Positions 7,107 through 31,614 of a stretch of DNA of 32,222 nt are shown here, in pieces (positions within the stretch are counted from its first letter, which is position 1; each line of letters starts with the position of its first letter). A program made the translations under genes and the position numbers. This DNA comes from Actinomycetes bacterium (GTDB lineage Bacteria; Actinomycetota; Thermoleophilia; RBG-16-64-13): assembly GCA_021802965.1 (NCBI GenBank), contig JAJZQZ010000011.1, positions 1 to 32,222 of the forward strand, written 5' to 3'. The notes beneath the pieces were generated by a model that saw only the letters and a list, made by a program, of their open reading frames with translations, was not told the origin of the DNA and searched no databases.

Positions 7107-7643
7107 TTGAACGAAATCATCCTGCACGTGAACGGCCGTGCCTACGCGGCCAGAGTCGAAGACCACTGGACGCTTCTCGACGTGCTCAGGAACCAGCTCG
7201 GGTTCACGGGAGCGAAGAAAGGCTGCGACCAGGGCTCGTGCGGCGCGTGCACGGTGCTCCTCGACGGTATCGCCGTGCAGTCCTGCCTGGTCCTCGCGGT
7301 GCAGTCCCAGGGCAGAAGCATCGTGACGATCGAAGGGTTGGCGCGAGATGGCCGGCTGGACCCCCTGCAGAGCGCGTTCCACGAGGTGGGGGCGATCCAG
7401 TGCGGCTTCTGTACGCCCGGCATGATCCTCTCGGCGAAGGCGCTCCTCCTGAGGAACCCCGACCCCAGCGAGGACCAGATCAAGGAGGCCTTGTCCGGGA
7501 ACCTCTGCCGCTGTACCGGGTACGTGAAGATCGTCCAGGCGGTCAAGATGGCGGCGGCGGAGAGGTCGCAGGCGGCGGGCGCGGCGCCTCAGGACGTCGC
7601 GCTCAGAGCGGATCCGGCGCCTCAGGCGGGGTCTGGCACGTGA
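7107..7643 (+). CDS. hcrC: (2Fe-2S)-binding subunit of a xanthine oxidase-family molybdenum hydroxylase, 4-hydroxybenzoyl-CoA reductase gamma-like
   Basis: GCDQGSCGACTVLLDG and CGFCTPGMILSAKALL...NLCRCTGY double 2Fe-2S motifs; adjacent large and FAD subunits; probable TTG start. Confidence 0.85.
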   Translation: MNEIILHVNGRAYAARVEDHWTLLDVLRNQLGFTGAKKGCDQGSCGACTVLLDGIAVQSCLVLAVQSQGRSIVTIEGLARDGRLDPLQSAFHEVGAIQCGFCTPGMILSAKALLLRNPDPSEDQIKEALSGNLCRCTGYVKIVQAVKMAAAERSQAAGAAPQDVALRADPAPQAGSGT

Positions 7644-10991: not shown

Positions 10992-12632
10992 ATGGAGGAC
11001 CACATGCCGAACCCCGGCCCGCCGCCCGGCCTCGACAGATACCGACTGGGCACGTTCGCGGACATCATGTATCGAAACTCCCTCCTCTACGCCGAGAAAG
11101 AAGCTTTTGTCTGCGGCACCGAGAGGGTGACCTTCGCGCAGTTCAACGCCGGCTCGAACAGGCTCGTCCGCGCCCTGTACGGACTTGGCCTCGAGAAGGG
11201 TGAGACCCTGGGCGTCGTCTCCTGGAACTGCATGGAGGTCCTCTACGCCTACGGGGCGGCCATGAAGGGCGGCTTCATCGTCTCCCCGTTCAATGCCCGG
11301 CTGCAGGACGACGAGTTGACCGCCGTGATCGACGACTCGGCCGCCCAGGTGCTCATTGTGGGCGCGGGATGCGAGGACAGGGTCGAGCGTATCCGCCCGC
11401 GGCTGGGACACATGCGCCACCTCGTCTCCTGCGACCCGGGCCGGGAGGGGATGATCCCCTTCGCCGAGCTGGTGGCAGCCCACGCGGACGACGAGCCCGA
11501 CGTGGAACTCGACGAGGACGACCCGTTCCTCATCATCTACACCAGCGGCACCACCGGCGCCCCCAAGGGCGCCCTCTACACGCACAGGCGCAAGCTCGAA
11601 GACTGCAAGGTCTGGGCGCTGAACCTGACCGTGGAGCCGAGAGACCGCGCGATGCTGGTGCAGCCGCTCTTTCACATCGCGGGCACCATCATCTTGGCGT
11701 TCATGTACGTGGGGGCCGCTCACATCATCATGCCCAACACGTCCTTCGACCCGGTGGCCACCGTCCACACCATGGAGCGGGAGAAGATCACCTTCCTGCA
11801 GGTGGTCCCCACGCTGCTCGTGTCCATAATGGATGCGGCCGAGATCGAACGCCCCGACCTGAGCGCCTTGACGCGCATCCTGTACGCGGCGTCCCCGATG
11901 CCCGTCGACCTCTTGCGCAGGGGGTTGGAGACCTACGGACCGGTCTTCGTACAGTCCTACGGGCAGTCCGAGTCCGGTCCCAACATCACCTCCTTCCCCC
12001 GCGACGAACACGACGTCCTGCACCTGCCGCCGGATCAGCAACAGGTGCTGCGCTCGGCGGGACGACCCTGCGTGGGTGTGCAGGTGAGGATCGTCGACGG
12101 CGAAGGCCGCGAGTGCGGCTCTGGCGACATCGGGGAGATCACGGTGCGCAGCAAGTCGCTGATGGTGGGGTACTGGCGGAAACCCGAGGAGACGGCCAGG
12201 ACCATCGTCGACGGCTGGCTCCACACCGGCGACATGGGCTACCTCGACCCCGAGGGCTACCTCTATCTTGTGGACCGCAAGCGGGACATGATCGTCACGG
12301 GCGGGGAGAACGTCTACCCCTACGAGGTCGAGCAGGTGCTCCGTCTCCACCCGGCCGTCGACGAGGCCGCCGTCGTCGGCCTTCCCGACCCCTATTGGGT
12401 CGAGCGGGTGCACGCCTTCGTGGTGCTGGCAAAACCCGGCGAACCGCTCGATGATCCCACTGCCGCTGGGGAGCCCGCTCTGGTCGAAGAGTTGCGCCGC
12501 TTCTGTCGGGACCACCTCGCTGGGTACAAGGTGCCGAAGTCGGTCGAGTTCATCGATGCCCTTCCACGTAACGCCACCGGGAAGGTGCTGCGGCGCGAGC
12601 TACGCGCCCGCTGCGTCGGGACCAGCGACTAG
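10992..12632 (+). CDS. AMP-dependent acyl/aryl-CoA ligase
   Basis: IIYTSGTTGAPKGALYTHR, GWLHTGDMGYLDPEGYLYLVDRKRDMIVTGGENVYPYEVE, PRNATGKVLRRELR motifs of the ANL superfamily. Confidence 0.93.
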   Translation: MEDHMPNPGPPPGLDRYRLGTFADIMYRNSLLYAEKEAFVCGTERVTFAQFNAGSNRLVRALYGLGLEKGETLGVVSWNCMEVLYAYGAAMKGGFIVSPFNARLQDDELTAVIDDSAAQVLIVGAGCEDRVERIRPRLGHMRHLVSCDPGREGMIPFAELVAAHADDEPDVELDEDDPFLIIYTSGTTGAPKGALYTHRRKLEDCKVWALNLTVEPRDRAMLVQPLFHIAGTIILAFMYVGAAHIIMPNTSFDPVATVHTMEREKITFLQVVPTLLVSIMDAAEIERPDLSALTRILYAASPMPVDLLRRGLETYGPVFVQSYGQSESGPNITSFPRDEHDVLHLPPDQQQVLRSAGRPCVGVQVRIVDGEGRECGSGDIGEITVRSKSLMVGYWRKPEETARTIVDGWLHTGDMGYLDPEGYLYLVDRKRDMIVTGGENVYPYEVEQVLRLHPAVDEAAVVGLPDPYWVERVHAFVVLAKPGEPLDDPTAAGEPALVEELRRFCRDHLAGYKVPKSVEFIDALPRNATGKVLRRELRARCVGTSD

Positions 12633-13723: not shown

Positions 13724-15868
13724 CTACCCGGACGGCTGCGGGTCGAAGTACAGCTCGATGGTGGTGTCTTCCACGGTGTCGCCGCTCCGATGGTACTTCT
13801 TGCTGGCGACCTTGCCGCCCACCGACTCGCCCTTGCGCGCCACGACGTCCCAGTTCTGGATGACCACCGCCTCACCGTCGAGCTCGCTCCTGTGCCCGTC
13901 GATGAAGTTCGCCCACCAGAAACCCGCGGGAGCGTAGGAGAACTCGAGCCAACTCCCATCGGGGTGCGTGACCTTGACCTTCTCGGAGATGATCGGAACG
14001 ATCAAACGGAGCTTGGGCTGAAACGGCGGTCCTTGGTGACCGTTCAGAAATGCGCCGGTAGCCAGGAGCTCCAAGTTCCTCGCCTGCATCATGGGATGCG
14101 GCGGCGTCAGGGTCACGGTCGCGGTGGTCCCGGGGATCGACCACTGATACGACTCGCTGAGCTCACCCTCGCCCCCCAATGTCATTCCGAGCTCGTTGGT
14201 CTTGTAGAGGGGGAACTGCGCATCGGCGACGGCATCCTGGACCATGCTCGTCATCAACGAGTGGAAGACCAGCCGGAAGTTCAGCAATAACTCTCCCTCC
14301 CGCCTGATCGCCTCGGCCAGCCTCTGCATCTCGGGGACATTGCGGCACCACTCGGCGATCTCGAAGATCTCCGCGACGTAGAAGATCTCCTTTTGCTCGC
14401 TCGCCCACCTCACGCGGTTGTCCACGGCCTTGCCCAGTGCGGCCTCGATGAGCCCCCATCCGGTGAGCAACTGCGGGCGGAAATAGCCCTCCATCCCCCA
14501 GCGATAGACCAAGTTCTTCCATTGGAGGAAGAAGGGCAGCTCATCGCGGATGTCATCCGGCCACTGGAGGCAGTTTTGCAGGCCGGCCTCGATGTAGGGC
14601 CATTGCTGCTCAAGGTACTCCTTGCGCTTCGTCGAATCCCACAGCGCCGCGTCCCGTTCCCACTGGTCGCCGAGAGCCGTCGGGGTGTGACTGCCAAGGT
14701 CGCCCGCGTCCCCAGGGGTGCCGGCGGCAGCTCCCTTGCCGCTGAAGTGATAGACGTCGAGCGTGATACGGCCGGCACCCACGTAGACGGGGCAGAGGTA
14801 GGCCTCGCCGTTGGCACGGAACCCGAAGCCGAACCACTCCTGCCCGCCGGGCGGGGATGTCCCGGGGGGAGGGGTGATGGTGAGCGTCCCCGGGTTGCTC
14901 AGGACGAGACCTTCAGGTTCCAACTTCACGCCGCCCACGAGGCCGCCCGTCGCGGGCAGCCCGCCGACGCCCGAGAGGGGCACCACGGAGATGTCCACCG
15001 ACCCCGCGACGGCCGCCGGGGGGAGCGTCAGAACGTACTTGGTGCCGTCGGCCCCGGTGGCGTCGATAGCGCCCCCTGAACTGTCGATGGTCGCGGTAGC
15101 TCGGCGGCTATCGTCGGCCTGGATGGTCACCATGAGGGGATTGGCCCCCACCTTCTGCAGCAGACTATGGAGCACCTGGGCAACCTCGCCCCGAGTAGCA
15201 GGCGCCCAGGGGTCCCAGCCGGCTCCGAAACCCTCGAGACCGACGAGCAGGCCGTTGTGCTCGGCTTTGCGCAGGTTGGCGGCGTGGGTCTGGTCGTCGA
15301 AAGTGGGCAGACTACCCTGGTATCCTGGAGGGGTAGCAGCGAGGGCCCCCGGCTTCAGGCGATCGGCGGCGCGCACCACCATGGTCAGAAGTTGAGCGCG
15401 CTTTATGGGGTCGCCGGGAGCGAAGGTGGTGGGGGTGGCGCCTTTGGTGATCTGGTTGGCCGCGCACACGGCGATGTAGTTGTCGGGGAAGAAGGGGTCG
15501 GCATACCCCCCGACCTGTACGTCTGAGAAAGGACTGATGTCGGCTTCGGTCACGGGCAGGGCGAAGCTCAGGACCACCATCTTGGCGAATTGCTGCCTGG
15601 TAACCTGACGATCGGGGCCGAAGCTGCCATCGGGGAAGCCGCCGATGATGCCGCGGGCCGAGAGGTCGGCGATCGCCGTGGTGTAGCGATGGGTGGCGGG
15701 GACGTCGTTGAAGGCGAGAGCGGGAGACGCAAGCGCCATGAGGAACACGAGTGCACACGCGCCCGCGAGCAGCCAAGCCGCGAGCTTCGGACGGCGCCCG
15801 AACCGGGCTCCCACGACGGCCGACCCGACCACAACGGACCGCTCCCCCACAACTCTTGCCCATTCCAT
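13724..15868 (-). CDS. SLH-domain secreted/surface protein with uncharacterised C-terminal region
   Basis: Signal peptide (LAAWLLAGACALVFLMALASPALA) then SLH repeats (FNDVPATHRYTTAIADLSARGIIGGFPDGSFGPDRQVTRQQFAKMVV; CAANQITKGATPTTFAPGDPIKRAQLLTMVVRAAD); in-frame ATG at 15868. Confidence 0.88.
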   Translation of the reverse strand: MEWARVVGERSVVVGSAVVGARFGRRPKLAAWLLAGACALVFLMALASPALAFNDVPATHRYTTAIADLSARGIIGGFPDGSFGPDRQVTRQQFAKMVVLSFALPVTEADISPFSDVQVGGYADPFFPDNYIAVCAANQITKGATPTTFAPGDPIKRAQLLTMVVRAADRLKPGALAATPPGYQGSLPTFDDQTHAANLRKAEHNGLLVGLEGFGAGWDPWAPATRGEVAQVLHSLLQKVGANPLMVTIQADDSRRATATIDSSGGAIDATGADGTKYVLTLPPAAVAGSVDISVVPLSGVGGLPATGGLVGGVKLEPEGLVLSNPGTLTITPPPGTSPPGGQEWFGFGFRANGEAYLCPVYVGAGRITLDVYHFSGKGAAAGTPGDAGDLGSHTPTALGDQWERDAALWDSTKRKEYLEQQWPYIEAGLQNCLQWPDDIRDELPFFLQWKNLVYRWGMEGYFRPQLLTGWGLIEAALGKAVDNRVRWASEQKEIFYVAEIFEIAEWCRNVPEMQRLAEAIRREGELLLNFRLVFHSLMTSMVQDAVADAQFPLYKTNELGMTLGGEGELSESYQWSIPGTTATVTLTPPHPMMQARNLELLATGAFLNGHQGPPFQPKLRLIVPIISEKVKVTHPDGSWLEFSYAPAGFWWANFIDGHRSELDGEAVVIQNWDVVARKGESVGGKVASKKYHRSGDTVEDTTIELYFDPQPSG

Positions 15869-16101
15869 CGGTGCCCCTCCTCGCCGTGTACGCGCTGGGT
15901 GCACCGATTCTACTGATGTGTGGTTAGGCGCGCAAACGCACAGTACAGAACCCTGAGTGAAGAAGGCCTTCGATGGTCTTGGCCGTGTGGCTGAAGCGCA
16001 TCGGCAAGACGACACTGACCAGGCCTGAGGCGGGCGTGGCCTCCGCGGTCCGAGGCACGTGGAGGGGCATCCCCGCATCCGATGAAGTCTTCATCGGCGG
16101 G

Positions 16102-17459: not shown

Positions 17460-19478
17460 CTATCCATCTACACCCGGGTCGCAGCTCGAACCGATCAACC
17501 TACCCACTAGTGCCTCGTAGATATCCAAAGAGGCCGGATTGGCCAGCGAATCCCGGTTGGTCACCGGCCTTCCGTGAAAAATGTTCGTGACCGCCGTCTC
17601 CACCTTCTTGCCGTTCAGCGTATAAGGTATGTCAGCCACGGCGATGATCTTCGCTGGTACGTGGCGCGGGGAGGCGTTCTCGCGCAGCGTCTTCGCGATC
17701 TTCATCTGGAGCTCGTCGGTGAGTTCGTTGCCGTTGGCCAGCTTCACGAAGAGCAGCACTCGCTGGTCGCCCTGCCAGTCCTGCCCGATGGCGAGCGAGT
17801 CGGCGATCTCGGTCAACCGCTCAACCTGGTTGTAGATCTCGGCCGTGCCGATGCGCACGCCGCTGGGCTTGAGCACGGCGTCGGAGCGACCGTAGAAGGT
17901 CACCCCACCCGTGTCACCGTGGATGAGCACGTAGTCCCCGTGGCGCCAAACACCCGGGTACACGTCAAAGTAGGCGTCGTGATAGTGCTTGCCGTCGGGG
18001 TCGTTCCAGAAGCAGAGCGGCATTGGCGGCGCCGGGGCGAGACAGACGAGCTCCCCCACCTCGTCGCGCACCGGCTGGCCCGCCTCGTCGAAGCACTCCA
18101 CCTTCATCCCCAAGCCTCGGGCCTGGAGTTCGCCTGGGTAGACGGGCAACGTGGGCGTGCCGATGGCGAAACAGCCGTTGATGTCTGTGCCGCCCGAGAT
18201 GGAGTTGAAGTGCACGCCTGACTTGATCGACTCATAGACGTAGGCGAAGCCCTCGGGCGAGAGGGCCGAGCCCGTCTGCAGGATCTCGCGAAGCGCAGAG
18301 AGATCATAGTCGCGGGCAGGTTGCATGCCCTGGGCCTTCAGCAGGTTAATGTAAGTCGCACTGGTGCCGAAGACGGTGACTTTCTCGTCCGCAATGAACT
18401 GCCACAGGGCGCCCAGGTCGGGATAGCCCGGGTTGCCGTCGAACAGGACAACGGTGGCGCCGGCGCCCAGGCCCGAGATAAGCCAATTCCACATCATCCA
18501 GCTGGCGGTAGTGATGTAAAAGAGGATGTCGTCACGGGTGACGTCGGCGTGAAGCACGAGTTCTTTCAGTTGGTTCAGCATCAGGCCGCCCCCTGACTGC
18601 ACGAGGCACTTGGGCTTGCCCGTGGTCCCCGAGCTGAACATGACAACCGCGGGGTGGTCGAAAGGCAGCTGGGCGAAATCGAGGACGGCATCGTCGTGCT
18701 CGCCCAGGAAGTCGTCCCAGCGAAGCGTCGTGGGCGCCGGGAGGCCGGCCGCAGCCCGGGCGGCGGCTGGCGCGGTGAGGTCGACGTTGTTGCCGGCATA
18801 AGAGGCGACCACCACAGTTGCTACCGAGGAGATCCCTGCCACCACTTGGGTCGCGTTCGCGAAGGCGTCGAAGGTCTTGTCCTTGTACAGGTAGCCGTCG
18901 GCGCAGAGGAGCACCTTGGGCTCCACCTGGCCCAGGCGGTCGACGGCCGCTTGGGGACCGATGTCGGTGGCGCACGAGGTCCAGACGCCGCCAATGGCCA
19001 CCGTGGCAAGCATGCCCACGGCCGTCTCGGGCAGGTTGGGGAGGTAGCCGGCGACGACGTCGCCGGATTGGACGCCTGCAGCTCGGAGCGCCCGGGCGAG
19101 GCGGGCGACGGTCTGGTTCAGCTCTCGATAGGTGATCCGATTCGCGGGGCGCGTCTCGCCCTTGAAGAGGAACGCAGTCCGGTCGTCGTCGTAGCGGAGG
19201 AGGTTCTGGGCGAAATTGAGGCGCGCGCCCGGGAACCAACGCGCGCCCGGGAAGCGGCCGAGGTCATCGACCACCGTCTCGTACGTCACCGAGTGCTTGA
19301 CCTGGAGGAAGTCCCACATCGCCGCCCAGAAGGCAGGGATGTCGTCGACCGACCACTGGTATAAGTCGTCGTAGGAGAGGAAAGAGCGGCCGAGTCGCTC
19401 ACCGGCGAAGGTAGCGAAGCGAGTGATGTTCGCCTGGGCGACGCGCTTCGTGGTAGGGGTGTAAAGCGGCTCGGCCAC
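17460..19478 (-). CDS. aacS: Acetoacetate--CoA ligase (acetoacetyl-CoA synthetase)
   Basis: Family-specific N-terminus (FLSYDDLYQWSVDDIPAFWAAMWDFLQVK), GARWFPGARLNFAQNLL, VMFSSGTTGKPKCLVQSGGG, SGGTDINGCFAIGTPTLPVYPGELQARGLGMKVE. Confidence 0.9.
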   Translation of the reverse strand: MAEPLYTPTTKRVAQANITRFATFAGERLGRSFLSYDDLYQWSVDDIPAFWAAMWDFLQVKHSVTYETVVDDLGRFPGARWFPGARLNFAQNLLRYDDDRTAFLFKGETRPANRITYRELNQTVARLARALRAAGVQSGDVVAGYLPNLPETAVGMLATVAIGGVWTSCATDIGPQAAVDRLGQVEPKVLLCADGYLYKDKTFDAFANATQVVAGISSVATVVVASYAGNNVDLTAPAAARAAAGLPAPTTLRWDDFLGEHDDAVLDFAQLPFDHPAVVMFSSGTTGKPKCLVQSGGGLMLNQLKELVLHADVTRDDILFYITTASWMMWNWLISGLGAGATVVLFDGNPGYPDLGALWQFIADEKVTVFGTSATYINLLKAQGMQPARDYDLSALREILQTGSALSPEGFAYVYESIKSGVHFNSISGGTDINGCFAIGTPTLPVYPGELQARGLGMKVECFDEAGQPVRDEVGELVCLAPAPPMPLCFWNDPDGKHYHDAYFDVYPGVWRHGDYVLIHGDTGGVTFYGRSDAVLKPSGVRIGTAEIYNQVERLTEIADSLAIGQDWQGDQRVLLFVKLANGNELTDELQMKIAKTLRENASPRHVPAKIIAVADIPYTLNGKKVETAVTNIFHGRPVTNRDSLANPASLDIYEALVGRLIGSSCDPGVDG

Positions 19479-19906: not shown

Positions 19907-20947
19907 TCATGGCATCGACTCGGCGTCGGTCAGGGGCGGGGCGGTCTCCGCGGCCGGCCCGGACATGAGCGCGGGCTCCGGTCGCGGGGCCAGCTTCGAC
20001 GCCGCCGCGTGGAGATGGTCCAGCCACCCCTCGTCGCGCAAGGTGGCGAAGACTTCCCATGCCACAGTCCTCTCGCTCGGACGCACGACCCGGCCCTCCC
20101 GCCGGTGCACCGCTCCGTTGACCAAGCCCTGGATACGCTCGAACGCGCTCAGCTCTGAATCGGGAGCCGCCAGTGGTCGCATTCGGGGTCGCGGTGTGCG
20201 CAGGCGGCCGTGGCGCAGGGGATAGTCGGCGGACATGACGTCGAGCGCGGGGACACCCAGTGTGGCGAGGTCCCAGACGATGATCTCAGCCTGCTGCGCA
20301 GCGAGTAGCGCCGACAAGGGAGCCTCGAACTCGGCGACCTCACCGGGGAGGACCGTCACCACTGCGGGCAATTCGGCCTCAACGAGCTCAACATAGCCAG
20401 CGGCAAGCCTTCGGACAAGATAAAGGTTCTGCGAGTGGATCGCAGCGCCAAGGTCGGCCAGACCGCGCACCTGGGTGACGCACGCATACCCGAGTCGTCG
20501 CGCCACGAGCACCCCTAGCTGCCCGCTGGCGTAGGCCGAGCCGAAGGCGCCGGTCAGAACCAGGTTGCATGCGAGCGTGGCAGCAGCGGCTGCCACGACC
20601 ACGGCCAAACCGGGTGCCCTGGCCTCAGCGAGTGCGCCGTCCCACACCCGCACGGCTCGATCGGCCCCGCGCGCGAGGCCGTCGCGCAGCCAGGGTTCGG
20701 CCTCGGCTAGGCCCAAGTGTAGCAGCACCACTTCGGCGGGCGAAGGGGCCGTGTCCGACTTTTCGGCTTCGGACAACAGCCCGGCCTTCAGCCGGAGCGC
20801 GACGTCAAGCGCTGCGCAGTCGGCTGGATCGAGTTGGGTGACGTCCCACTCGGGGCGCAGGCGGTCGGTACGTAGATCGCGCTCTGGAGAAACGCGTAGG
20901 TCGGGGGAGATCTGTTGCAGGACGAGGATACGCACGCCCAGTGTCAC
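19907..20947 (-). CDS. etfB: Electron transfer flavoprotein beta subunit (EtfB/FixA-like), divergent
   Basis: GTG start at 20947 overlapping the fixX stop (GTGA); EtfB-like architecture (LARGADRAVRV...LPAVVTVLPG) adjacent to etfA, fixC and fixX. Confidence 0.8.
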   Translation of the reverse strand: MTLGVRILVLQQISPDLRVSPERDLRTDRLRPEWDVTQLDPADCAALDVALRLKAGLLSEAEKSDTAPSPAEVVLLHLGLAEAEPWLRDGLARGADRAVRVWDGALAEARAPGLAVVVAAAAATLACNLVLTGAFGSAYASGQLGVLVARRLGYACVTQVRGLADLGAAIHSQNLYLVRRLAAGYVELVEAELPAVVTVLPGEVAEFEAPLSALLAAQQAEIIVWDLATLGVPALDVMSADYPLRHGRLRTPRPRMRPLAAPDSELSAFERIQGLVNGAVHRREGRVVRPSERTVAWEVFATLRDEGWLDHLHAAASKLAPRPEPALMSGPAAETAPPLTDAESMP

Positions 20948-21219
20948 GTCCCCCGGAAGCGGACGCCGAAACCACCTCGTGGGTAGTGCCAGTCCAGCGC
21001 GCCCTGGTCGCAGAGGACGAGGCAGGTGCCGCACTCCAGGCAGGCCTCGTAGGCAAACTCCACTCGCTCGCGCTCCTCACTCCAGGTATAGCAGCGCGCC
21101 GGGCAGGCGAAGGTGCAGGCGCGCACCGAGCACCCCGCGCAACGCTCGTGGACGACGCGGATGTGCGCTTCGGTGTTCACCCGGTAACTGGTGACGTCGA
21201 AGATGCCTTCGATGTTCAC
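20944..21219 (-). CDS. fixX: Ferredoxin-like protein FixX
   Basis: CAGCSVRACTFACPARCYTW...EFAYEACLECGTCLVLCDQGALDWHYPRGGFGVRFR matches the FixX pattern. Confidence 0.93.
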   Translation of the reverse strand: MNIEGIFDVTSYRVNTEAHIRVVHERCAGCSVRACTFACPARCYTWSEERERVEFAYEACLECGTCLVLCDQGALDWHYPRGGFGVRFRGT

Positions 21220-22550
21220 AGGTACGACCGCCCCGCCTCGACCAGGTCGACGACCAGCTCGCGCAGAGCCACTCGGCCCCCCATGGCCGTCCTCCCCAGT
21301 CGGCCCAGCCGTCGCTTGGGCTCACAGTCGGACCGGTACAAGCCATCCATCAGCGCGCCCACCATCTTGGGGTACGCCGAGAAGATGCGGTCGCGGTGCA
21401 GTAGGTGCACCGCTCGGTCGTACGTCTTCATGTCTCGCAGCACGAAACTCTCGCGCAGGCGCTCGTCGTACGCCGCCAGGCGCGCGGCCGAGACATCGCC
21501 GGCGGCGACTGCTTCGACAGCCACCTCGCCCGCCAGCTTGCCCGAGGTCATGGCCAGGTTCATGCCCTCCTGTGCGAGGCCGTTCGTGTAGCACAGCGCG
21601 GCGGCATCCCCCGCAACCAGCACCCCTGCGCCTGACAAGCGCGGGACCATCTTGAGCCCTCCCTCGGGCAGCAGATGGGCCGAGTACTCCACCAAACGGC
21701 CACCCCTAATCAGCGTCGCGACGTACGGCGAAGCAACGAACCTTTCCAACAGCTGGTAGGGAGCGAGGCACCGGATCTTGAGGGAGTCCAGGTGCAGAAC
21801 GACGCCAACGGCCAGGGTCTCGGTCTGCGTGTATACAAAGCCGCCACCACGGACGCCCTCGGTGCAACCGAGGAACTCCTGTGTCGCTCCCTGCTGACCG
21901 ACCAGGCCGAACCGTTCGGCAATTTGCTCCTCGGGCAGACGATAGAGTGCCCTCACTCCCAGGGCGAGTTGGTCGGGTCGGAAGCCCTGGTGGAGGCCGG
22001 CATCCTTGCCCAGCAGCGACAGGGTGCCATCGCAGAGCACTACGACCGGCGCCTCTAGTACGCCGTCCGGTCGGGCGACGCGGACACCGGAAACCCGCCC
22101 GTTCTGCAGGACCAGGCCCTCGACGAGACACCCGGTGAGTAAGGTCACCCCCGCATCGCGCGCCCGCTCAGCGTACCAGCGGTCGAAGCGCGGCCGGAAC
22201 AGGGTCAGGCCGGTACCGACCAGGGCGTCCGACGACACTCGTGCTGCGGCAGGCGCGGAGTCGGCTGCCGATCCATCGCCGTGGTATGCGACCGTTGTGG
22301 CTGAATGTTCGCCCACGACGGTCAGCACCCGTTTGACGACCTGGCGCTCCCAGGGAGCGTCCTGCCAGAAACCTGGCAGCAGCTCCTCGGGAGCCGCACA
22401 GGCGACCACCATCCCGCCGAACATGTTCTTGCCCCCCGGCGTCTCGGCCCGCTCGAGCAGCACGACCCGGGCACCCGCCAGTGCTAGGGTCAACGCGGCG
22501 GTGGTCCCTGCCGGGCCCGCGCCCACGACGATGGCGTCGACCTTATGCAC
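21216..22550 (-). CDS. fixC: FixC / ETF-quinone oxidoreductase-family flavoprotein
   Basis: VDAIVVGAGPAGTTAALTLALAGARVVLLERAETPGGKNMFGG, GVLVAGDAAALCYTNGLAQEGMNLAMTSGKLAGE; GTG start overlaps the etfA end. Confidence 0.92.
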   Translation of the reverse strand: MHKVDAIVVGAGPAGTTAALTLALAGARVVLLERAETPGGKNMFGGMVVACAAPEELLPGFWQDAPWERQVVKRVLTVVGEHSATTVAYHGDGSAADSAPAAARVSSDALVGTGLTLFRPRFDRWYAERARDAGVTLLTGCLVEGLVLQNGRVSGVRVARPDGVLEAPVVVLCDGTLSLLGKDAGLHQGFRPDQLALGVRALYRLPEEQIAERFGLVGQQGATQEFLGCTEGVRGGGFVYTQTETLAVGVVLHLDSLKIRCLAPYQLLERFVASPYVATLIRGGRLVEYSAHLLPEGGLKMVPRLSGAGVLVAGDAAALCYTNGLAQEGMNLAMTSGKLAGEVAVEAVAAGDVSAARLAAYDERLRESFVLRDMKTYDRAVHLLHRDRIFSAYPKMVGALMDGLYRSDCEPKRRLGRLGRTAMGGRVALRELVVDLVEAGRSYL

Positions 22551-23679
22551 TGGCCCCTCCGTCGACCGCCCCAACCCTTCTCGCGATACCTAGGTCGGCG
22601 CTGTCAACAGCCGCTACGCTGTCGCGCCACTCTTTGATCAATGCGACGAGTTCGGGCAGCACCTCGCGCAGGTCGCCGACGAACGCGGTGTCGCTCAACG
22701 CGAGAATCGGCGCCACCGGGTCACGGTTCACTGTCAGGATTCGCTCCGCACCCTGTACCCCCGCCATATGGTGCGGCGACCCGGAGATTCCGAGCGCCAG
22801 GTAGAGGTCGGGCGCGACGGTCTTGCCGGTCTGCCCGACGAGACGCTCCTTGGGTAGCCGCCGGTCGTCCGTAACCGGACGACTCGCGCCCACGGAACCC
22901 TCCAACAGCTCCGCCAACTCGACCACCAGCGCCAAAGCGCCATCTCCCGGGCCGTCAACAGCTCCGGCGCCGGCAGCGACGATCCGGCGCGCATGCACCA
23001 AGTCGACTGTACGATAGTCGGGAGGTACGAAGCCCAGATGACGGACACGACACCCGTCCCCTCTCCGCGCTGTCTGACCAGGCGATATGGTCACGAGGTC
23101 GAGTTTCGCCGAGCCGCCTAGGGTTGCCTGCAGCACGTCTGGGGAGATTGAGACCACCTGGATCCGCCCGGGTGCAAAGGTCGATTCTTGCTCCAAGTGC
23201 CCACCGAAGACCGGCTTCACCCAAGTGAACAATGGATCCCCGTCGGTCGCGCTGCGGTGGGGGACGGCATCGGTCGCCCCGAGCAGGGCACAGGTGTCCA
23301 GGCAAGCGGCCAGCAGGGACGCAAGTTCGCGCCCCAGGTCTGTGTCGGGGCAAAGAACGGTGAGGGCGCCCCGCTCGCGTGAGTGGGCCGCCAAGGCGTC
23401 GGCCAAGGCGGGTAGATCGACAGGCGATCCGTCGGCCGACCAGGTGACATGACCGACAACCGCCACTCGCGCATCGGGCGCCGGTTGCGCAGGCGGGATC
23501 ATTGCCGCCAGCCGAATGGCTTCGGAGGGCAGCCGCAGGTCGAGTCCCCCTTCGGTCGCTCGCGAGTCGGCGTGCGGGTCGGACTCCGCGGGGCGACGGT
23601 CGCGCACCGCGCCCGAGCCCGCCTCAGGCGGCCCCATGGCGGGCTCGATTACGACCAGAATGTCGACGCGGTGGGTCAC
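22543..23679 (-). CDS. etfA: Electron transfer flavoprotein alpha subunit (EtfA/FixB)
   Basis: C-terminal FAD-binding motif LPKERLVGQTGKTVAPDLYLALGISGSPHHMAGVQGAERILTVNRDPVAPILALSDTAFVGDLREVLPEL. Confidence 0.93.
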   Translation of the reverse strand: MTHRVDILVVIEPAMGPPEAGSGAVRDRRPAESDPHADSRATEGGLDLRLPSEAIRLAAMIPPAQPAPDARVAVVGHVTWSADGSPVDLPALADALAAHSRERGALTVLCPDTDLGRELASLLAACLDTCALLGATDAVPHRSATDGDPLFTWVKPVFGGHLEQESTFAPGRIQVVSISPDVLQATLGGSAKLDLVTISPGQTARRGDGCRVRHLGFVPPDYRTVDLVHARRIVAAGAGAVDGPGDGALALVVELAELLEGSVGASRPVTDDRRLPKERLVGQTGKTVAPDLYLALGISGSPHHMAGVQGAERILTVNRDPVAPILALSDTAFVGDLREVLPELVALIKEWRDSVAAVDSADLGIARRVGAVDGGASA

Positions 23680-25625
23680 ACCCGCTTGCCGGCCATGTAG
23701 CCTTCGTAGATAGCCATGTCGATCCGGCGCGGAGCCACGCAGTCACCGGCGCGGTAAAGCTCGGGAACCCGGCCCTTAAGCGCGAAGTACAAGGCGTCGT
23801 CTGCGTCGTTGCCCATGGCGGTGACCACGCTGTCGTACCCCTCGATGGTGAACCAGTTGTTCGAGTACACGTCGAAGCCGTTGAGCGCCGTGCCTTGGAT
23901 CTCCATGACAGCGTAATCGGGGGTGAAGGTAACCCCGGCCTGCAGCAGGCGCTGGCGCGTGAGGTAGAGATCCTGGGTCGGACCGAGCTCGGAGCCGACG
24001 AACAGGCTGGAGGTGACGATGTGCACCGTCTTGCCCGCGGTCGCCAAGGCTTCCGCGGTGGCGGTCGCCTGGTGGTGGCCGTCATAGTCGATCAAGAGCA
24101 CCCGGTCGCCCAGTTCGACTTCGCCGCCGAGCGCCTGCCACACGTTGAACACGTGCGGCCCGTCGGCGCCGCCGACCGGGCAGGTCTTTGGCCGCGACCC
24201 GGTCGTGACGATGACCGCTTCGGGCTCATCGGCAAGCACCTGGTCGGCGGTCACCTCATGCCCGGTAACAACGCGCACAGGCAGCTTCGCAAGCGCCGCG
24301 CGCTCGTTGCGCCCGATCACACCGAACTCGTCGCGGCCCGCACCCCTCATGGCCAGCAGCACCTGCCCGCCCAGCTCCGGCCCACTGTTATATAGAGTGA
24401 CCTCGTGGCCGCGCAGGGCGGCAACCTTGGCGGCCCACATGCCAGCGGGCCCGCCGCCGACCACCGTGACCCGTTTGCGACGCATCGTGGGCCTAAGATG
24501 ACGCTCCCCCTCGATAGCCTCGCTTCCCGCCCCCGGATTCTGGACACAGCCAATGGACTTGTTCAGTCCCACTCGGCCGTAGCAATTCTGGTTGCAGGCT
24601 ATGCAGGAGCGGATCTCTTCGGCCCGCCCCTCCTTGGCCTTATTGGCGAACTGAGGGTCGGCGATCTGGCCGCGCACGACGCCGATCATGTCGGCCTGGC
24701 CGTCGGCCAGCACGCGCTCAGCGAAGGCGGGGTCGTTGATGCGCCCGGTGGCGAACACAGGCAGCGTCACCGCCGACTTCACACCTGCGGACAACGGCAC
24801 CCCGTACCCCAACGGCAGGTGCATGGTGCCGCCCACCAGATAGAGGTTATAGAAGGTTGAAAGTGTCAGGTTGAAGAAGTCGACGTGGCCCGTCGACTCG
24901 AGCCGCCGGGCCATACGCTTGGCGTCGTCCAGCGTCAGCCCCCCCGGGATGAGTTCGTCTGCGCACAGGCGCACGCCCACAGTGTAATCGTCGCCCACGG
25001 CCCCCCGGACCGCAGCCACCAGTTCCAGCGGAAAACGCAGTCGCCGCTCCTCATCGCCGCCGTACTCGTCGTCGCGGAGGTTGGTCAGCGGAGACATGAA
25101 CTGGCGCACCAGAGAGGCGTGCCCGAACTGCAGCTCGACCCCGTCGAAGCCGCCTTCGCGCGCATGTACCGCCGAGCGACAGAAGTGGGCGACGACCTCC
25201 TGGATATCCTCCGGCTCCATGACCTTGGGCACCTCGCGGAAGAGCACGTCGGGAACCGCCGAGGGCGCCCACACCGGCAGCCGTGAGAGACTGCCGCTGC
25301 ACTGCTGGCCGTTGTGGTTGAGTTGGGCGAAAATGCGCGTGTCGAATTCACGCACCGCTCGGGTCAGTCGCTTATATCCGGGGATGACTTTGGGCGCGAA
25401 CGCTTCGATGAGGTGCTCGTACGCCTGGTCGGTCGGGTGCACTGACTGCTCTTCGGTGATGATGAGGCCTGCCCCGCCACGGGCACGTTCGACGAGATAG
25501 GCGATCAGCCGGTCGGTCACCATTCCGTCATCGGCCAAGTTGGTCAGGTGCGCCGAGAAGGAGATGCGGTTTACGACCGTCACCCGGCCGATGGCCAAGG
25601 GAGTAAAGAGGTGCGCATACGACAT
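23676..25625 (-). CDS. OYE/FadH-family oxidoreductase (FMN, 4Fe-4S, FAD/NAD(P)), resembling mycofactocin-associated OYE oxidoreductases
   Basis: N-terminal OYE TIM barrel (LFTPLAIGRVTVVNRI, FDGVELQFGHASLVRQFMSPLTNLRDDEYGG), 4Fe-4S motif CIACNQNCYGRVGLNKSIGC, then Rossmann FAD domain (VTVVGGGPAGMWAAKVAALRGHEVTLY). Confidence 0.92.
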   Translation of the reverse strand: MSYAHLFTPLAIGRVTVVNRISFSAHLTNLADDGMVTDRLIAYLVERARGGAGLIITEEQSVHPTDQAYEHLIEAFAPKVIPGYKRLTRAVREFDTRIFAQLNHNGQQCSGSLSRLPVWAPSAVPDVLFREVPKVMEPEDIQEVVAHFCRSAVHAREGGFDGVELQFGHASLVRQFMSPLTNLRDDEYGGDEERRLRFPLELVAAVRGAVGDDYTVGVRLCADELIPGGLTLDDAKRMARRLESTGHVDFFNLTLSTFYNLYLVGGTMHLPLGYGVPLSAGVKSAVTLPVFATGRINDPAFAERVLADGQADMIGVVRGQIADPQFANKAKEGRAEEIRSCIACNQNCYGRVGLNKSIGCVQNPGAGSEAIEGERHLRPTMRRKRVTVVGGGPAGMWAAKVAALRGHEVTLYNSGPELGGQVLLAMRGAGRDEFGVIGRNERAALAKLPVRVVTGHEVTADQVLADEPEAVIVTTGSRPKTCPVGGADGPHVFNVWQALGGEVELGDRVLLIDYDGHHQATATAEALATAGKTVHIVTSSLFVGSELGPTQDLYLTRQRLLQAGVTFTPDYAVMEIQGTALNGFDVYSNNWFTIEGYDSVVTAMGNDADDALYFALKGRVPELYRAGDCVAPRRIDMAIYEGYMAGKRV

Positions 25626-25723
25626 CGCCCTACTTCACCTCCCGCTGCAACGCCGCCGGAAACCGACGGAAGCGGGGACCATCCCCATCCAGATAGCAGA
25701 AGACCGAAAACTCTCCATACCCC

Positions 25724-25816
25724 TTAGTAGACCCCGCAAATGCCGTCCACGGCCAGCTGCTCGATCTCGATCTCCTCAAGGATCTCCGGCAACTCGGTCG
25801 CCCCTTCCACTCCCAA
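25724..25816 (-). CDS. mftA: Mycofactocin precursor peptide (MftA-like); start uncertain (TTG at 25816 or GTG at 25810)
   Basis: Short acidic leader and C-terminal core ...GATELPEILEEIEIEQLAVDGICGVY*, matching the conserved IDGMCGVY-type terminus of MftA; only visible in the ORF track as the tail of 25724..26014. Confidence 0.82.
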   Translation of the reverse strand: MGVEGATELPEILEEIEIEQLAVDGICGVY

Positions 25817-26313
25817 ACTGTCGTCACAAAGATCTATTGTCGTGCGATCCTTCGTCGGCTCGAGTCCTCGGGACAGCGGCCGAGAATCTGTCTCCCGCGT
25901 AGCACTGACGCCGCCGAGCCAGCACTTCTGGTCGGACTGGGGCAGGTTGTCTTGGCCCTGCAGATCTGGCACCGGTTCCTCCACTTGTCGTACTCCACGT
26001 TGCGCTCGCCACACTCCCTATCGGCCGGTTTGCCCGCTCCGCCGTTCAGGATCATGAGAGAGCATCAAACGATTTGCCTGCGTACGCGAGCTCAGCACTG
26101 GTCTAGCCAACTCGGGCAACGGCGACGCCAAAGACCGAAGAGCCTCTGTCCGGGGGCCCGCATCTCGCGGCATCCTCAGTCGCACGACCGGTCGAGACGT
26201 GCTGCGTCAAGGACGACAACGCCCCTGAACCCCATCGCGGAGCGGGTTAGTCCGATTCCCCCACGACGAATCGGTGGATAGAAGAAACCAGAAACTGGAA
26301 GACGAAAAAGCGC

Positions 26314-27909
26314 TCAGGGAGCCATCCCATCACGAAGGGATCGATCGGCATCCACTTGCCCCCCCAAGTCATGCCCGACGTAGCATGCAGCGACGAGAGG
26401 CTCGACAGCAAGGGGCGCGGTGCATTCGGCCGATATGGCTCCCTCGACGATCACAAAGGCATGAGTACAGACAGACACGATCTCCTCCGGCTCAGCGCTT
26501 GCCATGATGACCGCAAGCCCTCGGTCTGCAAAATCCCTTATGAGCCTATGGATCTCCTCCCGAGCGTGCACGTCGATGCCCGCGGTCGGTTCATCCAAGA
26601 TCCAAAGTGAGGCCCCCGTCAGCATCCAACGACCAATGAGGACCTTCTGCTGGTTACCGCCTGACAGAGTCTGTATTGGCTGGTTGGGATCGCCTTTGAT
26701 GGAAAGCTGCTGCGCGAGGCGCCCGACAGCGGAACGTTCTTTCCGCCCGGACGTGAAACCTCTCCCCGAGAAACTGTGCAACGCCGCGACGGTCGCATTC
26801 TCCGTGACGCTCATGCCGCGTAAGAGCATGGGGCCGCGCCCTTCCGTTATGTACGCCACACCCCTGCGCGCGGCCTCCCGCGGCGAGCGGCAAGGTCCAC
26901 CTCCGAGCACGTCGAGGGAGCCGTGCGCGTAATGCTGGACCCCGGCGATCATGCGGAGGAGCTCGCTGCGGCCTGATCCCTGCAGCCCCGTGAGCCCAAC
27001 GATCTCCCCTGGGTACACCTCGAATGACACTCCGCGTATTCGCGAGCCGTGCAGATCGCGAGCCGCGACGGCGACCTTGCCCTTCCGGCGTGATGAGAGC
27101 GTGCTGGTCCCCCGGCGACCGGGCTGGCCCCCTACGAGCTCGACCATCCCCTCGATAGTGACAGCGTCGCGCTCCACGCGGCCCGTCACCCGACCGTCTC
27201 GCATGGCTACAACGCGGTCGGAGAGCCGCTTGATCTCCTGCAAACGGTGCGAGATGTATACGAGAGAGTGGCCGGAGTTCGCAAGTGCAGTCAGCACCGG
27301 AAACAGATGTTCCACGGTATCGGCCGGGAGAGTCGCGCTGGGCTCGTCGAGAATGAGCAGCTGGGGGTCGTGCGCCAGCGCGCGCGCAATGGTCAACAGT
27401 CGCTGTTCGACGGGTGAGAGTGCACCGGCCGGCCGGTTTGGATCCATCTTCTCGAGACTCACCCGAACCATCAGTTCGCGAGCGCGCTCTCGCAACGAGC
27501 CACCGCGAACAACGCCGGCGCGAGAGGGGAACTGTCCCAGTAGCAGGTTCTCGGCGACCGACATGTCGGGAACCAGATTGAGTTCCTGAGGCACGAAAGC
27601 GATCCCGGCGTGCAAGGCAGTGCGAGGATTACGCAGGTGGACCTCTCGTCCGTGGAGCAAGATCTGTCCGCCGTCTGGAGTGATGACTCCGGCCAGAATG
27701 TTCATCAACGTCGACTTGCCCGCACCGTTGGCCCCAACAAGTCCGACAATCTGGCCGCAGGGGATATCGAAGGAGACTCCGTCGACCGCCACCACCGAGG
27801 CGAACGCCTTACGGATGTCGACGAATTCGACAAGCGGTGGAGGCGCGGAGCCGTCTGCCTCCGCATCCGCCGAGCCTCTTCTCTCAGATGCGAGCTCGTT
27901 TCCCGACAT
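26314..27909 (-). CDS. Sugar-type (CUT2/RbsA-like) ABC transporter ATP-binding protein, two ABC domains
   Basis: GLVGANGAGKSTLMNILAG, LSPVEQRLLTIARAL, LLILDEPSATL; second domain GLTGLQGSGRSELLRMIAG, LSGGNQQKVLIGRWM; ATG at 27909 preceded by a G-rich SD. Confidence 0.95.
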   Translation of the reverse strand: MSGNELASERRGSADAEADGSAPPPLVEFVDIRKAFASVVAVDGVSFDIPCGQIVGLVGANGAGKSTLMNILAGVITPDGGQILLHGREVHLRNPRTALHAGIAFVPQELNLVPDMSVAENLLLGQFPSRAGVVRGGSLRERARELMVRVSLEKMDPNRPAGALSPVEQRLLTIARALAHDPQLLILDEPSATLPADTVEHLFPVLTALANSGHSLVYISHRLQEIKRLSDRVVAMRDGRVTGRVERDAVTIEGMVELVGGQPGRRGTSTLSSRRKGKVAVAARDLHGSRIRGVSFEVYPGEIVGLTGLQGSGRSELLRMIAGVQHYAHGSLDVLGGGPCRSPREAARRGVAYITEGRGPMLLRGMSVTENATVAALHSFSGRGFTSGRKERSAVGRLAQQLSIKGDPNQPIQTLSGGNQQKVLIGRWMLTGASLWILDEPTAGIDVHAREEIHRLIRDFADRGLAVIMASAEPEEIVSVCTHAFVIVEGAISAECTAPLAVEPLVAACYVGHDLGGQVDADRSLRDGMAP

Positions 27910-28062
27910 TTCTACCCCCCTGTCTCCAACGTTCCCCCTCGGAACGGTATCCGACATGCCAACCGTGACGCCGAGCGACATGCGAATCGTCCAAACGTCG
28001 ACCATCCTGCACTGCGGGCCACTCGACCATCAGCAGGAGACGCACAATCGGCATCAAGCCGC

Positions 28063-29133
28063 TCAGTCAGCCTTCCTTCCTGTACCGAGCATAAGAGTCA
28101 CAATGAGCGTGACGCCGATGATGCCGTCGCCCAACCACCCGCTGGCCCCGAGTATGTTCAAGCCCGACTGCAGAACGCCGATGAAGAGCGCCCCTACTAC
28201 ACTGCCGAACACGTTGAAGGTTCTCGCCCCCAGCACGGACGTACCGAAGAACACCGCGACAAAGGGAGGTATGAAGAGCCCGCCGCCAAGCTGGGGCGAG
28301 TACTGGCCTGCCCGCGACGTTATGATGACGCCCGCGGCGGCCGCACAAAAGCCCATCACAGTGAACGCGCCGACACGCGTTATCGACATGTTGACGCCTG
28401 AAAGGCGGGTGGCCGTCGGGTTGCTCCCTATCGCGCGAACGTACCGCCCGAACACCGTCCACCGGAGCATGGCGTAAATGGCCAGCGCCAGGGCTGCGGC
28501 GTAGTAGACCGTAAACGGGATGCCCAATGCCCGGCCGAAGGCCACGTTAAGATACGTCTCGTTGTGGACCGGGATCGTAAGTCCCCCGTGCGACAGACTG
28601 AACGACAGGGCGGTCCACACAGCACTAAGAGCGATAGTCACGATAAACGAGCCAGCGCGGCGCATCGCCACCAGCGCTCCCCCGATGAGCCCGGTCACCA
28701 CCCCGACAACTAGACCAACCAGAATGGGAACCGCCCACTGGTTCAGAGACGCCGAGGCCTGCACGGTGACGACCGAGACAAGCGCTGCGGCACCAGGAAA
28801 CGCAAGGTCGAACTCTCCGGCATTGAGCACGACCGTCAGCCCCACGGCCAAGACGATCACCGGGGCGGCGAGATCGATGATGGACCGGATGCTGACCCAC
28901 GTGGGAAAGACATCCGGTCTCACCGCCGAAAAGGCACCAAACATGATCGCGAAGCCTATCAGTGTGCCATACCGTCCCAAGAACCGACGCAAGACCGCCC
29001 CGCGTGATGTGGGAACAGTGGCATGGAAACGGGTGGGCTCGATCTGCCCCCCAGTCGCTTGCTCGCCCGACCCCGCGCTGCCTTTCGCAGCGCGGGGTTC
29101 GGAGATCCCTACGATGTTCTCAAGATCGGACAC
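28063..29133 (-). CDS. RbsC-like ABC transporter permease
   Basis: Multi-TM protein with CUT2 permease features (VLAVGLTVVLNAGEFDLAFPGAAALVSV, YVRAIGSNPTATRLSGVNMSITRVGAFTVMGFCAAAAGVI); GTG start. Confidence 0.93.
   Translation of the reverse strand: MSDLENIVGISEPRAAKGSAGSGEQATGGQIEPTRFHATVPTSRGAVLRRFLGRYGTLIGFAIMFGAFSAVRPDVFPTWVSIRSIIDLAAPVIVLAVGLTVVLNAGEFDLAFPGAAALVSVVTVQASASLNQWAVPILVGLVVGVVTGLIGGALVAMRRAGSFIVTIALSAVWTALSFSLSHGGLTIPVHNETYLNVAFGRALGIPFTVYYAAALALAIYAMLRWTVFGRYVRAIGSNPTATRLSGVNMSITRVGAFTVMGFCAAAAGVIITSRAGQYSPQLGGGLFIPPFVAVFFGTSVLGARTFNVFGSVVGALFIGVLQSGLNILGASGWLGDGIIGVTLIVTLMLGTGRKAD
29071..29097. repeat. Perfect 11-bp inverted repeat with 5-nt loop between binding-protein and permease genes
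   Basis: CCCCGCGCTGC-CTTTC-GCAGCGCGGGG. Confidence 0.85.
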
Positions 29134-29160: not shown

Positions 29161-30321
29161 TTACTTCGTCCCGTATTCCTGGGCCCACTTGGTGATGTAC
29201 TTGAGCACCAGCTCCGAGTTCGGGAAAAGTCCCTCGGCAGGCACGGGGAGCTTCTCGGCGACTTCAGACCGCGCGACGACCTCATACTTCAGACCCCCCT
29301 GATTCTTGATAGCATCGGGGTCGACCGGCGTGTTCTTCTCCAGGAGGCCAAGCAGCTGATCGACACCGATGACTGCGGTCTTGGGCAATTCTACATCCAT
29401 GACCCCTTCAAGAGCGGTGTCGGCCATAAGCTGCTCGACCATGTACGGCGACGTGTAGTACGAGAAGAACTTCGCCGAACTCCTCTCGTTCTTGATGGCG
29501 GCCAACGAACCCGGGGTGCTCATGTCGTAGATGCCATACACGATATTGATGTCGGGATTGGCGCGCAGGATGTCGCCCAGACCCTTGATCGTCGTGTTCA
29601 CGGGGTCCGTCATGCTCTGCTCGGCTGTTGCGACGACCGTTGCGCCCGTGTTGGCACCGGCCAGAGCCTTCTTGAAGGACTCAAAGCGCGTCCTACCAGC
29701 GGCGCCACCACTCGCAGTCATCACGGCGATCTTCGCGTTCGGGTACGTCCGAGCGATGTAGTCACCGATCACGCGCCCCATCTCGGACTCGTCTTCTTCA
29801 TACTGGCCCGTCCAGAGCGGAGACTTCTCGGTGCCTCCTGTCGCCTGGACGCTCGGAATCCCCGCGTCTTTGGCCGCGGCAAGTCCCGGGCGTACCCACG
29901 ATGCCTCTACGGTAAGGGTGATGATCGCGTCGACCTTCTGCGCGACGAGCGATTGGAATCCCGCGAGGGTCTTCTGCGTGTCCGACTGAGCGTCGATGAT
30001 GATCGTCTTCCACCCCAGTGCCTTGGCGGCCATCTCGACTGCGGTCTGACCCTTCATCAGGGTGGGAGAGGCTGCACCCGATTCGTTCAAGATGCCGAGC
30101 GTCCTCGGTTTGACGTTGATCTTGGTATCCAGGCTGATCGCGGCAGTGGTTTCCGAAGTCTGGGGCGCCGCTGTGGTGTCAGTGGCCGGCGCGGTGTCGG
30201 CCGTCGTAGTCTCTGTTGCCGCAGCCGAGGTGGTGGTCGTTCCGCCACCGCACGCGACAGCGAACACGCTGATGGCGAGCATCAGCAGCAACGCCAAACC
30301 TACCAGATAGCTTCTTCTCAT
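29161..30321 (-). CDS. Periplasmic-binding-protein-like lipoprotein (RbsB/peripla_BP_4 type)
   Basis: Lipoprotein signal MRRSYLVGLALLLMLAISVFAVACGGG; substrate-binding fold (TLGILNESGAASPTLMKGQTAVEMAAKALGWKTIIIDAQSD); G-rich SD before ATG at 30321. Confidence 0.92.
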   Translation of the reverse strand: MRRSYLVGLALLLMLAISVFAVACGGGTTTTSAAATETTTADTAPATDTTAAPQTSETTAAISLDTKINVKPRTLGILNESGAASPTLMKGQTAVEMAAKALGWKTIIIDAQSDTQKTLAGFQSLVAQKVDAIITLTVEASWVRPGLAAAKDAGIPSVQATGGTEKSPLWTGQYEEDESEMGRVIGDYIARTYPNAKIAVMTASGGAAGRTRFESFKKALAGANTGATVVATAEQSMTDPVNTTIKGLGDILRANPDINIVYGIYDMSTPGSLAAIKNERSSAKFFSYYTSPYMVEQLMADTALEGVMDVELPKTAVIGVDQLLGLLEKNTPVDPDAIKNQGGLKYEVVARSEVAEKLPVPAEGLFPNSELVLKYITKWAQEYGTK

Positions 30322-30501
30322 TGTTCCCCCCATCGATCCGATGACATGGTAACTAGCCGTACTGCCCGTCGTCCATTCAAACCGTTGACTCCACCGATCT
30401 CCTTCATGCTCCCTTCCGGGGAGGCAGTCGAGCCACCCCGCGGGTCACACATGGCCCCACCCTTCCTTCCGATTGCGCCTCTCACGTCGCGGCGCCACGG
30501 G

Positions 30502-31614
30502 TTATCGCCACTCGCAGAGCCAGCGGCCCGTTAGCTGGCGCTTTTCCATACGCTCGGCGATATCGTTCACCTCCTCGATCTTGAACGTCCCGCTCACCAA
30601 CTTTTCCAACAGCAGGTCGCCTCGCATAGCGGCATTGGTCAGCTTGGGGATGTCGTCGTGGGTCGAGATGCCACCGTAAAGACCGCCGATCATGTCCTTG
30701 TGATGGAAAGGCGAGAGCTGCAGGGACATGTTGACTTTCTGCTCGTCGCCCATGATGCCGATCAAGACGATGGTGCCGTTCATCGCCAGTGCCCACCATG
30801 CCTGCTCGATGACGCCCGGGTCACCGACGGCATCGAACGCAAAGTCGATGCCGCGGTCGTTCGTGAGGTCCTTGATGACGGGCACCGGATCGACGTCGGC
30901 GTTGCAGATGAAATGGGTGGCGCCGAGCTCACGAGCGAGCTTCTCGCGGGATTTCTCGAGGTCTATGGCTATGATCGGGTAGGCCTGGCGCATACGCGCC
31001 GCTCGGATGATGTTGAGGCCGATGCCACCCAGGCCCCACACCGCTACCCGGTCACCCAGGCGCACATCGGCGACCTTGTGCACCGCTCCCCAACCGGTGG
31101 GGATACAGCAAGACATGAGGGCCGCGTGCTCGAGCGGGAAGTCCTTGGGCAGGGGCACAACACCGGTTTCGGGCATCACCGCGTGGCTTGAAAAGCCGGC
31201 AACAAAGGCACCGTGAAGAACCGGGGCGCCCTTGGCGTCTCGCATGCGCGGGGTGCCGTCGAGCATGGTGCCCTGCGCGAAGACGTCAAAAGAGGTCAAG
31301 CAAAGGTTGCCCATGCCCGACCGGCAGGTCGGGCAGTGGCCGCACGGGATCATCCAGGTGCTCGCGACGTGGTCACCTTTCTTGACCAGCGTGACACCGG
31401 GACCGACGGCCTCTACCACACCCGCGACCTCGTGGCCTGCCACCATCGGAAGGGGCATCTTTATGTGCCCCTTCATTATGGATAGATCGCTGTGGCAGTA
31501 TCCCGTGAAGGCGTACTTTATGAGCACTTCACTCTGTTTGGGATCCTCGAGTTCGAGTTCCTCGATCTTGTAGCCTTTTCCATGTTCACGCAGAACAGCG
31601 GCTTTGATCTTCAC
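30502..31614 (-). CDS. Zn-dependent alcohol dehydrogenase (MDR superfamily), NDMA-dependent/nicotinoprotein-like
   Basis: MDR motifs GYCHSDLSIMKGHIKMPLPMVAGHEVAGVVEAVGPGV, CGHCPTCRSGMGNLC (structural Zn), VWGLGGIGLNIIRAARM; GTG start with GGGGGAG SD. Confidence 0.9.
   Translation of the reverse strand: MKIKAAVLREHGKGYKIEELELEDPKQSEVLIKYAFTGYCHSDLSIMKGHIKMPLPMVAGHEVAGVVEAVGPGVTLVKKGDHVASTWMIPCGHCPTCRSGMGNLCLTSFDVFAQGTMLDGTPRMRDAKGAPVLHGAFVAGFSSHAVMPETGVVPLPKDFPLEHAALMSCCIPTGWGAVHKVADVRLGDRVAVWGLGGIGLNIIRAARMRQAYPIIAIDLEKSREKLARELGATHFICNADVDPVPVIKDLTNDRGIDFAFDAVGDPGVIEQAWWALAMNGTIVLIGIMGDEQKVNMSLQLSPFHHKDMIGGLYGGISTHDDIPKLTNAAMRGDLLLEKLVSGTFKIEEVNDIAERMEKRQLTGRWLCEWR

Follow-up and report, generated by a model that had tools for sequence, protein, structure and literature searches.

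An orphan mftA-type gene without an ATG start, placed before a divergent mycofactocin-type redox operon in a member of the Thermoleophilia

Can a small reading frame that has no ATG and lies away from mftB and mftC be a mycofactocin precursor gene and, if so, how would its product be matured? The question is raised by the window analyzed here, namely the whole of a contig of 32,222 bases (C117) from a genome assembly of 3.24 Mb in 263 contigs that is 78% complete. An earlier note on this DNA had pointed to a minus-strand frame at 25724-25816, without an in-frame ATG, with TTG 25816 and GTG 25810 as candidate start codons and with an intact Asp-Gly-x-Cys-Gly-Val-Tyr-stop ending, and translation bears out each of these features. 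In particular, the minus strand from 25900 to 25724 translates as ...CDDSLGVEGATELPEILEEIEIEQLAVDGICGVY and a stop codon, and the end of the frame (25795-25724) reads ELPEILEEIEIEQLAVDGICGVY and stop, the C-terminus being VDGICGVY, with Val-Tyr last and DGxCG before it. In the upstream direction, neither a stop nor an ATG occurs in the frame until position 26018, where a stop codon lies 60 codons ahead of an ATA at 25837. The profile NF040489 (variant-type mycofactocin precursor) matches this frame, which we call mftA', over its full length (positions 1-23 of 23) with 39.2 bits, the cut-off being 30, and with an E-value of 3.2e-9 when scaled to the whole genome. The search with TIGR03969 (MftA) that the earlier note had proposed gave a divided answer: the long reading of the frame, with 23.6 bits, falls just under the cut-off of 25, while a 22-residue reading from a TTG closer to the stop reaches 26.1 bits.

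The 23-residue conserved region (25724..25795 including its stop, minus strand) contains no internal stop, frameshift or other damage, and the manner in which it has diverged is informative. Namely, compared with ten members of the bacterial family, a 21-codon core differs by 10-16 bases, chiefly in the third codon position; 6-9 codon changes are synonymous and 2-4 replace an amino acid, corresponding to dN of about 0.06-0.12 and dS of about 0.7-1.6 where computable. When an equal number of changes was placed at random, so few replacements were obtained with p<=5e-5 in the three members tested. Since the changes are mostly synonymous, selection has preserved the peptide encoded by the core over most of the period that separates the copies, which does not by itself establish its present use. 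The tail is short, and one could therefore ask whether the likeness arose by chance or the peptide is of some unrelated kind. However, the genome-wide E-value, the synonymous-biased divergence and the position directly before a mycofactocin-system oxidoreductase gene rule this out and leave it virtually no probability. Judged from its sequence, mftA' is a genuine MftA-type precursor gene and a second, orphan copy in its genome: the assignment made in the earlier note holds as to type, with the correction that an ATG-started mftA is present on another contig (C28). Neither of the outcomes named there as fatal to the assignment was obtained, the NF040489 cut-off being exceeded and mftB, mftC and mftF all occurring in the genome.

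Where would translation of mftA' begin? ATA and TTG both belong to the start codons of translation table 11. The codons favored previously, TTG at 25814..25816 and GTG at 25808-25810, have no Shine-Dalgarno pairing (+0.4 kcal/mol) and were rejected for this reason; when pairing to the 16S tail is predicted for random positions, 5% of these reach -8.4 kcal/mol, and no candidate start of mftA' does so. Better candidates on this measure, neither of them strong, appear to be ATA 25837, with the weak motif GAAGGA upstream (25848..25853, minus strand; -5.5 kcal/mol, a value attained by 25% of random positions), and TTG 25790..25792, which would give the 22-residue peptide and has AAGGGG upstream (25801-25806; -7.1 kcal/mol). 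Starting from the ATA, the probable leader IDLCDDSLGVEGAT (25796..25837, minus strand) would be acidic and free of Lys and Arg (shuffle p 0.0002), 18 residues would precede ILEEIE, the range in relatives being 14-22, and the surrounding bases match those around the initiating ATG of mftA on C28 in 9 of 12 positions, a level reached by only 0.04% of window positions, with the proviso that these comparisons were picked after looking and are suggestive only. A change of ATG to ATA at 25837 is a likely account of the history of this start. No terminator, sigma-70-type promoter or Rfam element was found in 25600-26400. A gene without an in-frame ATG is indeed easily overlooked by automatic gene callers, as the earlier note remarked, but this is not a new phenomenon, missed mftA calls having already been described by Haft in 2011 (PMC3023750).

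The genes around mftA', all on the minus strand, run from an alcohol dehydrogenase through an ABC transporter, mftA' itself and a set of redox genes to a ligase. The dehydrogenase (30502..31614) is of the NDMA-type zinc class (TIGR03989, 304 bits, under the cut-off of 440) and is 65% identical to the one beside the C28 mftA. It is followed by a periplasmic sugar-binding protein (Peripla_BP_4, 29161..30333), a transporter permease (BPD_transp_2, 28063..29133) and a sugar-type transporter ATPase with a double ABC domain (26314..28005), and then by 476 bp with no clear gene before mftA'. A spacer of 98 bp (25626..25723), the position of mftB and mftC in other clusters, separates the mftA' stop from OYE_2' (23676..25625), an intact mycofactocin system FadH/OYE oxidoreductase 2 of 649 residues with its CIACNQNC motif (TIGR03997, 910 bits, cut-off 793); neither this spacer nor the region upstream holds any significant remnant of mftC, mftB or an alcohol dehydrogenase gene. 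Next come etfA' (22543..23679), for electron transfer flavoprotein alpha, whose best NCBIfam match is mft_etfA (NF038209, 134 bits, under the cut-off of 240), a FixC-like FAD oxidoreductase of the ETF:quinone oxidoreductase type, FixC' (21216..22574, sharing 64% identity with its C28 counterpart), and etfB', for the beta subunit (19907..21034; TIGR04503, 79 bits, under the cut-off of 200; 49% identity to the C28 copy), the true start of which is probably internal to that frame. An acetoacetate-CoA ligase (17460..19478; TIGR01217, 840 bits, cut-off 521) completes the series. No mftB, mftC or mftF is present in the window. Elsewhere, it carries a molybdenum hydroxylase large subunit of the aldehyde oxidase/xanthine dehydrogenase type (7238-10003) and an AMP-binding acyl-CoA ligase-like protein (10992-12632), both on the plus strand, and, on the minus strand, a 784-residue frame (13724-16078) that matches one S-layer homology domain and none of the NCBIfam models.

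A family-by-family profile search of the genome itself locates the maturation genes. The C28 cluster is complete and comprises genes for an NDMA-type alcohol dehydrogenase, mftA, mftB, mftC, OYE_2, etfA, FixC, etfB and mftF; its mftA, with 41 codons, an ATG start and GGAGG upstream, scores above cut-off, as do MftB (40.3 bits), MftC (356 bits) and MftF (347 bits), and the mftB and the above-cut-off mftC found there are the only ones in the genome. The last ten residues, LAVDGICGVY, are the same in both precursors. The earlier note had proposed to look for mftB to mftF elsewhere in the genome: the first two and mftF are on C28, but mftD and mftE were not found. More precisely, ten mft-bearing genomes of the family contain no MftD at E<=1e-10 and no MftE above cut-off, the present genome, at 78% completeness, has no MftE at 1e-10, and MftG was not detected in the family; OYE_2, EtfAB and FixC are clustered there in place of MftD, MftG and an above-cut-off MftE. 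The window has the gene order of the C28 cluster, with mftA, OYE_2, etfA, FixC and etfB and the dehydrogenase upstream, but it lacks mftB, mftC and mftF, has the sugar-type transporter between the dehydrogenase and mftA' and the acetoacetate-CoA ligase at its end. The window thus holds a second, diverged version of the cluster's redox genes. A recent duplication of the C28 cluster is ruled out: OYE_2' shares 76% identity with its C28 counterpart and clusters, with support 93/91, with the proteins of G003, G005 and G012, which belong to other genera. Its end branch in the tree, 0.30, is the longest among the Thermoleophilia-type rows except one (L084), which could reflect relaxed constraint.

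How common is such an arrangement? Most mft-bearing relatives in the family share the C28 gene order, and the members examined (G000, G001, G003-G006, G008, G011, G012 and G015, loci L120-L130) mostly have mftB, mftC and mftF. Other genomes contributed 80 OYE_2 loci. An mftA was found upstream of OYE_2 in 54 of these, and for 53 the intervening distance is 1.28-2.1 kb, room for mftB and mftC. The sole exception resembling the window is G004, where mftA (36903-36968 of contig C132, locus L120) lies directly before OYE_2 with a gap of 300 bp and a weak trace of an mftC end, AVAGCVTDSADLPSLDC (E 0.17); no mftC was found in this genome, which is 76% complete. A second parallel is G012, whose contig C9 (L126:6251-7740) carries a second cluster of mftA, a mycofactocin-coupled SDR (NF040490, above cut-off), an MftB-like protein (27.4 bits, the cut-off being 33), an mftC that breaks off some 61 positions into the profile, and OYE_2, the intact mftC being on a different contig. 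As in the window, this is a second copy with an intact mftA and OYE_2 and no functional mftC of its own. Unlike mftA', however, its precursor has an ATG after AAGGAGG, a strong Shine-Dalgarno sequence, and 28.9 bits with TIGR03969, mftB and an mftC fragment persist, and its OYE_2 is only 57% identical to OYE_2'. The precursor gene there looks fully translatable despite the broken local maturase, which favors maturation in trans. In G006 (contig C40, L122:6173-12948), mftA sits between two alcohol dehydrogenase genes about 5 kb from mftB, the interval holding the second of these and two long glycine-rich secreted-type proteins that are alike in sequence. Extra copies look uncommon: two mftA were seen in 2 of 53 mftA-positive genomes among 397 Actinomycetota sampled, with a model that misses some variant copies. 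One genome of another family (G368, a single contig, C1, of 6.0 Mb) has two equal-scoring mftA at 10913 and 5985295, near both ends.

Set against what is established, the locus is an unusual arrangement of the known mycofactocin system and not a new system. With the NF040489 and TIGR03969 families mftA' shares the C-terminal 23 residues, the DGxCGVY end, the acidic leader and the OYE_2/ETF context, and it departs from their norm in lacking an ATG, in being a second copy away from mftB and mftC, and in the TIGR03969 score of its long reading. In mycobacteria, MftA is bound by MftB, its terminal Val-Tyr is decarboxylated and cyclised by MftC, and the product is set free by MftE and deaminated by MftD, in vivo mycofactocin is oligoglycosylated, and MftG connects the cofactor to respiration (PMC11778925). 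Of these steps, those of MftE, which the earlier note had named, and of MftD are not to be assumed here. Since MftD and MftG are undetected and MftE is only sub-cut-off in the family, release and later maturation would need other enzymes, and MftD and MftE are known not to be universal (PMC3023750). Several precursor genes for one maturation set have a precedent, with a different cofactor and family, in the Methylophilaceae, where 3-12 pqqA copies accompany one set of maturation genes (PMC4109929). Retention of a potential mftA after loss of mftB, mftC and mftE has been described in Herbiconiux sp. L3-i23, the genome of which, unlike the present one, is without any mftC (PMC11778925).

Is mftA' then in use, or is it a remnant? 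According to the latter interpretation, a second cluster that was once complete was stripped of mftB and mftC, after which the start of its mftA disappeared through the change from ATG to ATA, so that the tail would be a young pseudogene before a functional OYE/ETF operon fed by cofactor from C28. The missing ATG, the weak Shine-Dalgarno pairing at every candidate, the ATA at the expected beginning of the leader with its 9 of 12 bases as in C28, the G004 locus and the truncated mftC of G012 all fit such a history, and since OYE_2' is an old, fast-evolving paralogue in the G003/G005/G012 group, mftB and mftC could have gone late. That said, the conserved region is undamaged, the spacer contains no significant mftC remnant, which suggests that the deletion was not very recent, and both ATA and TTG are permitted starts. 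We give this close rival of maturation in trans a substantial probability, somewhat short of an even chance. It is also conceivable that the locus is real but that the ATA is a miscalled ATG, the two differing by one base, or that the contig was wrongly binned in an incomplete, fragmented assembly. This is improbable, however: the tetranucleotide correlation between the window and C28 is 0.988, above any relative tested, so that composition speaks against wrong binning, the tree places OYE_2' within the same bacterial family, and a base miscall would only reinforce mftA' as a real gene.

The explanation that we favor, at about even probability, is that mftA' is a second precursor, belonging to the divergent redox operon and matured in trans by the enzymes encoded on C28. 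It is favored by the NF040489 match, the constraint on the core, the mftB, mftC and mftF of C28, the shared LAVDGICGVY, the acidic ATA leader and its C28 start match, the G012 parallel and the pqqA precedent, and is weakened by the lack of an ATG, weak Shine-Dalgarno pairing and lack of a sigma-70-type promoter, by the absence of local mftB and mftC and by the long OYE_2' branch. We infer that translation of mftA' would most likely begin at a non-AUG codon, AUA 25837 or UUG 25792, that MftB from C28 would bind the peptide, that MftC from C28 would decarboxylate and cyclise its C-terminal Val-Tyr, and that the modified peptide would then be released and glycosylated (MftF). In this manner, mftA' would add cofactor whenever the operon (sugar-type uptake, NDMA-type dehydrogenase, OYE_2, EtfAB, FixC) is expressed. 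Going by family names and clustering, electrons would pass from the dehydrogenase to mycofactocin, on to OYE/ETF/FixC and finally to quinone, and the operon would be a second redox module linked to the import of an alcohol or a sugar-like compound. Only tentatively do we suggest the wider idea of a catabolic operon with its own non-AUG precursor, matured by a single distant MftB/MftC, in which cofactor supply is coupled to the pathway.

What would this mean for the organism and its family? In practical terms, TIGR03969 combined with ATG-based gene calling can overlook such mftA copies, and a precursor tail can stay intact though its maturation genes are lost. If a precursor of this kind with a distant maturase is real, an extra mftA without a functional mftC would be a recurrent arrangement in this bacterial family. 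Finally, if mftA' works, one maturase would serve unlinked precursors and the catabolic operon would set the cofactor dose, which may also hold for the multiple pqqA of PQQ producers.
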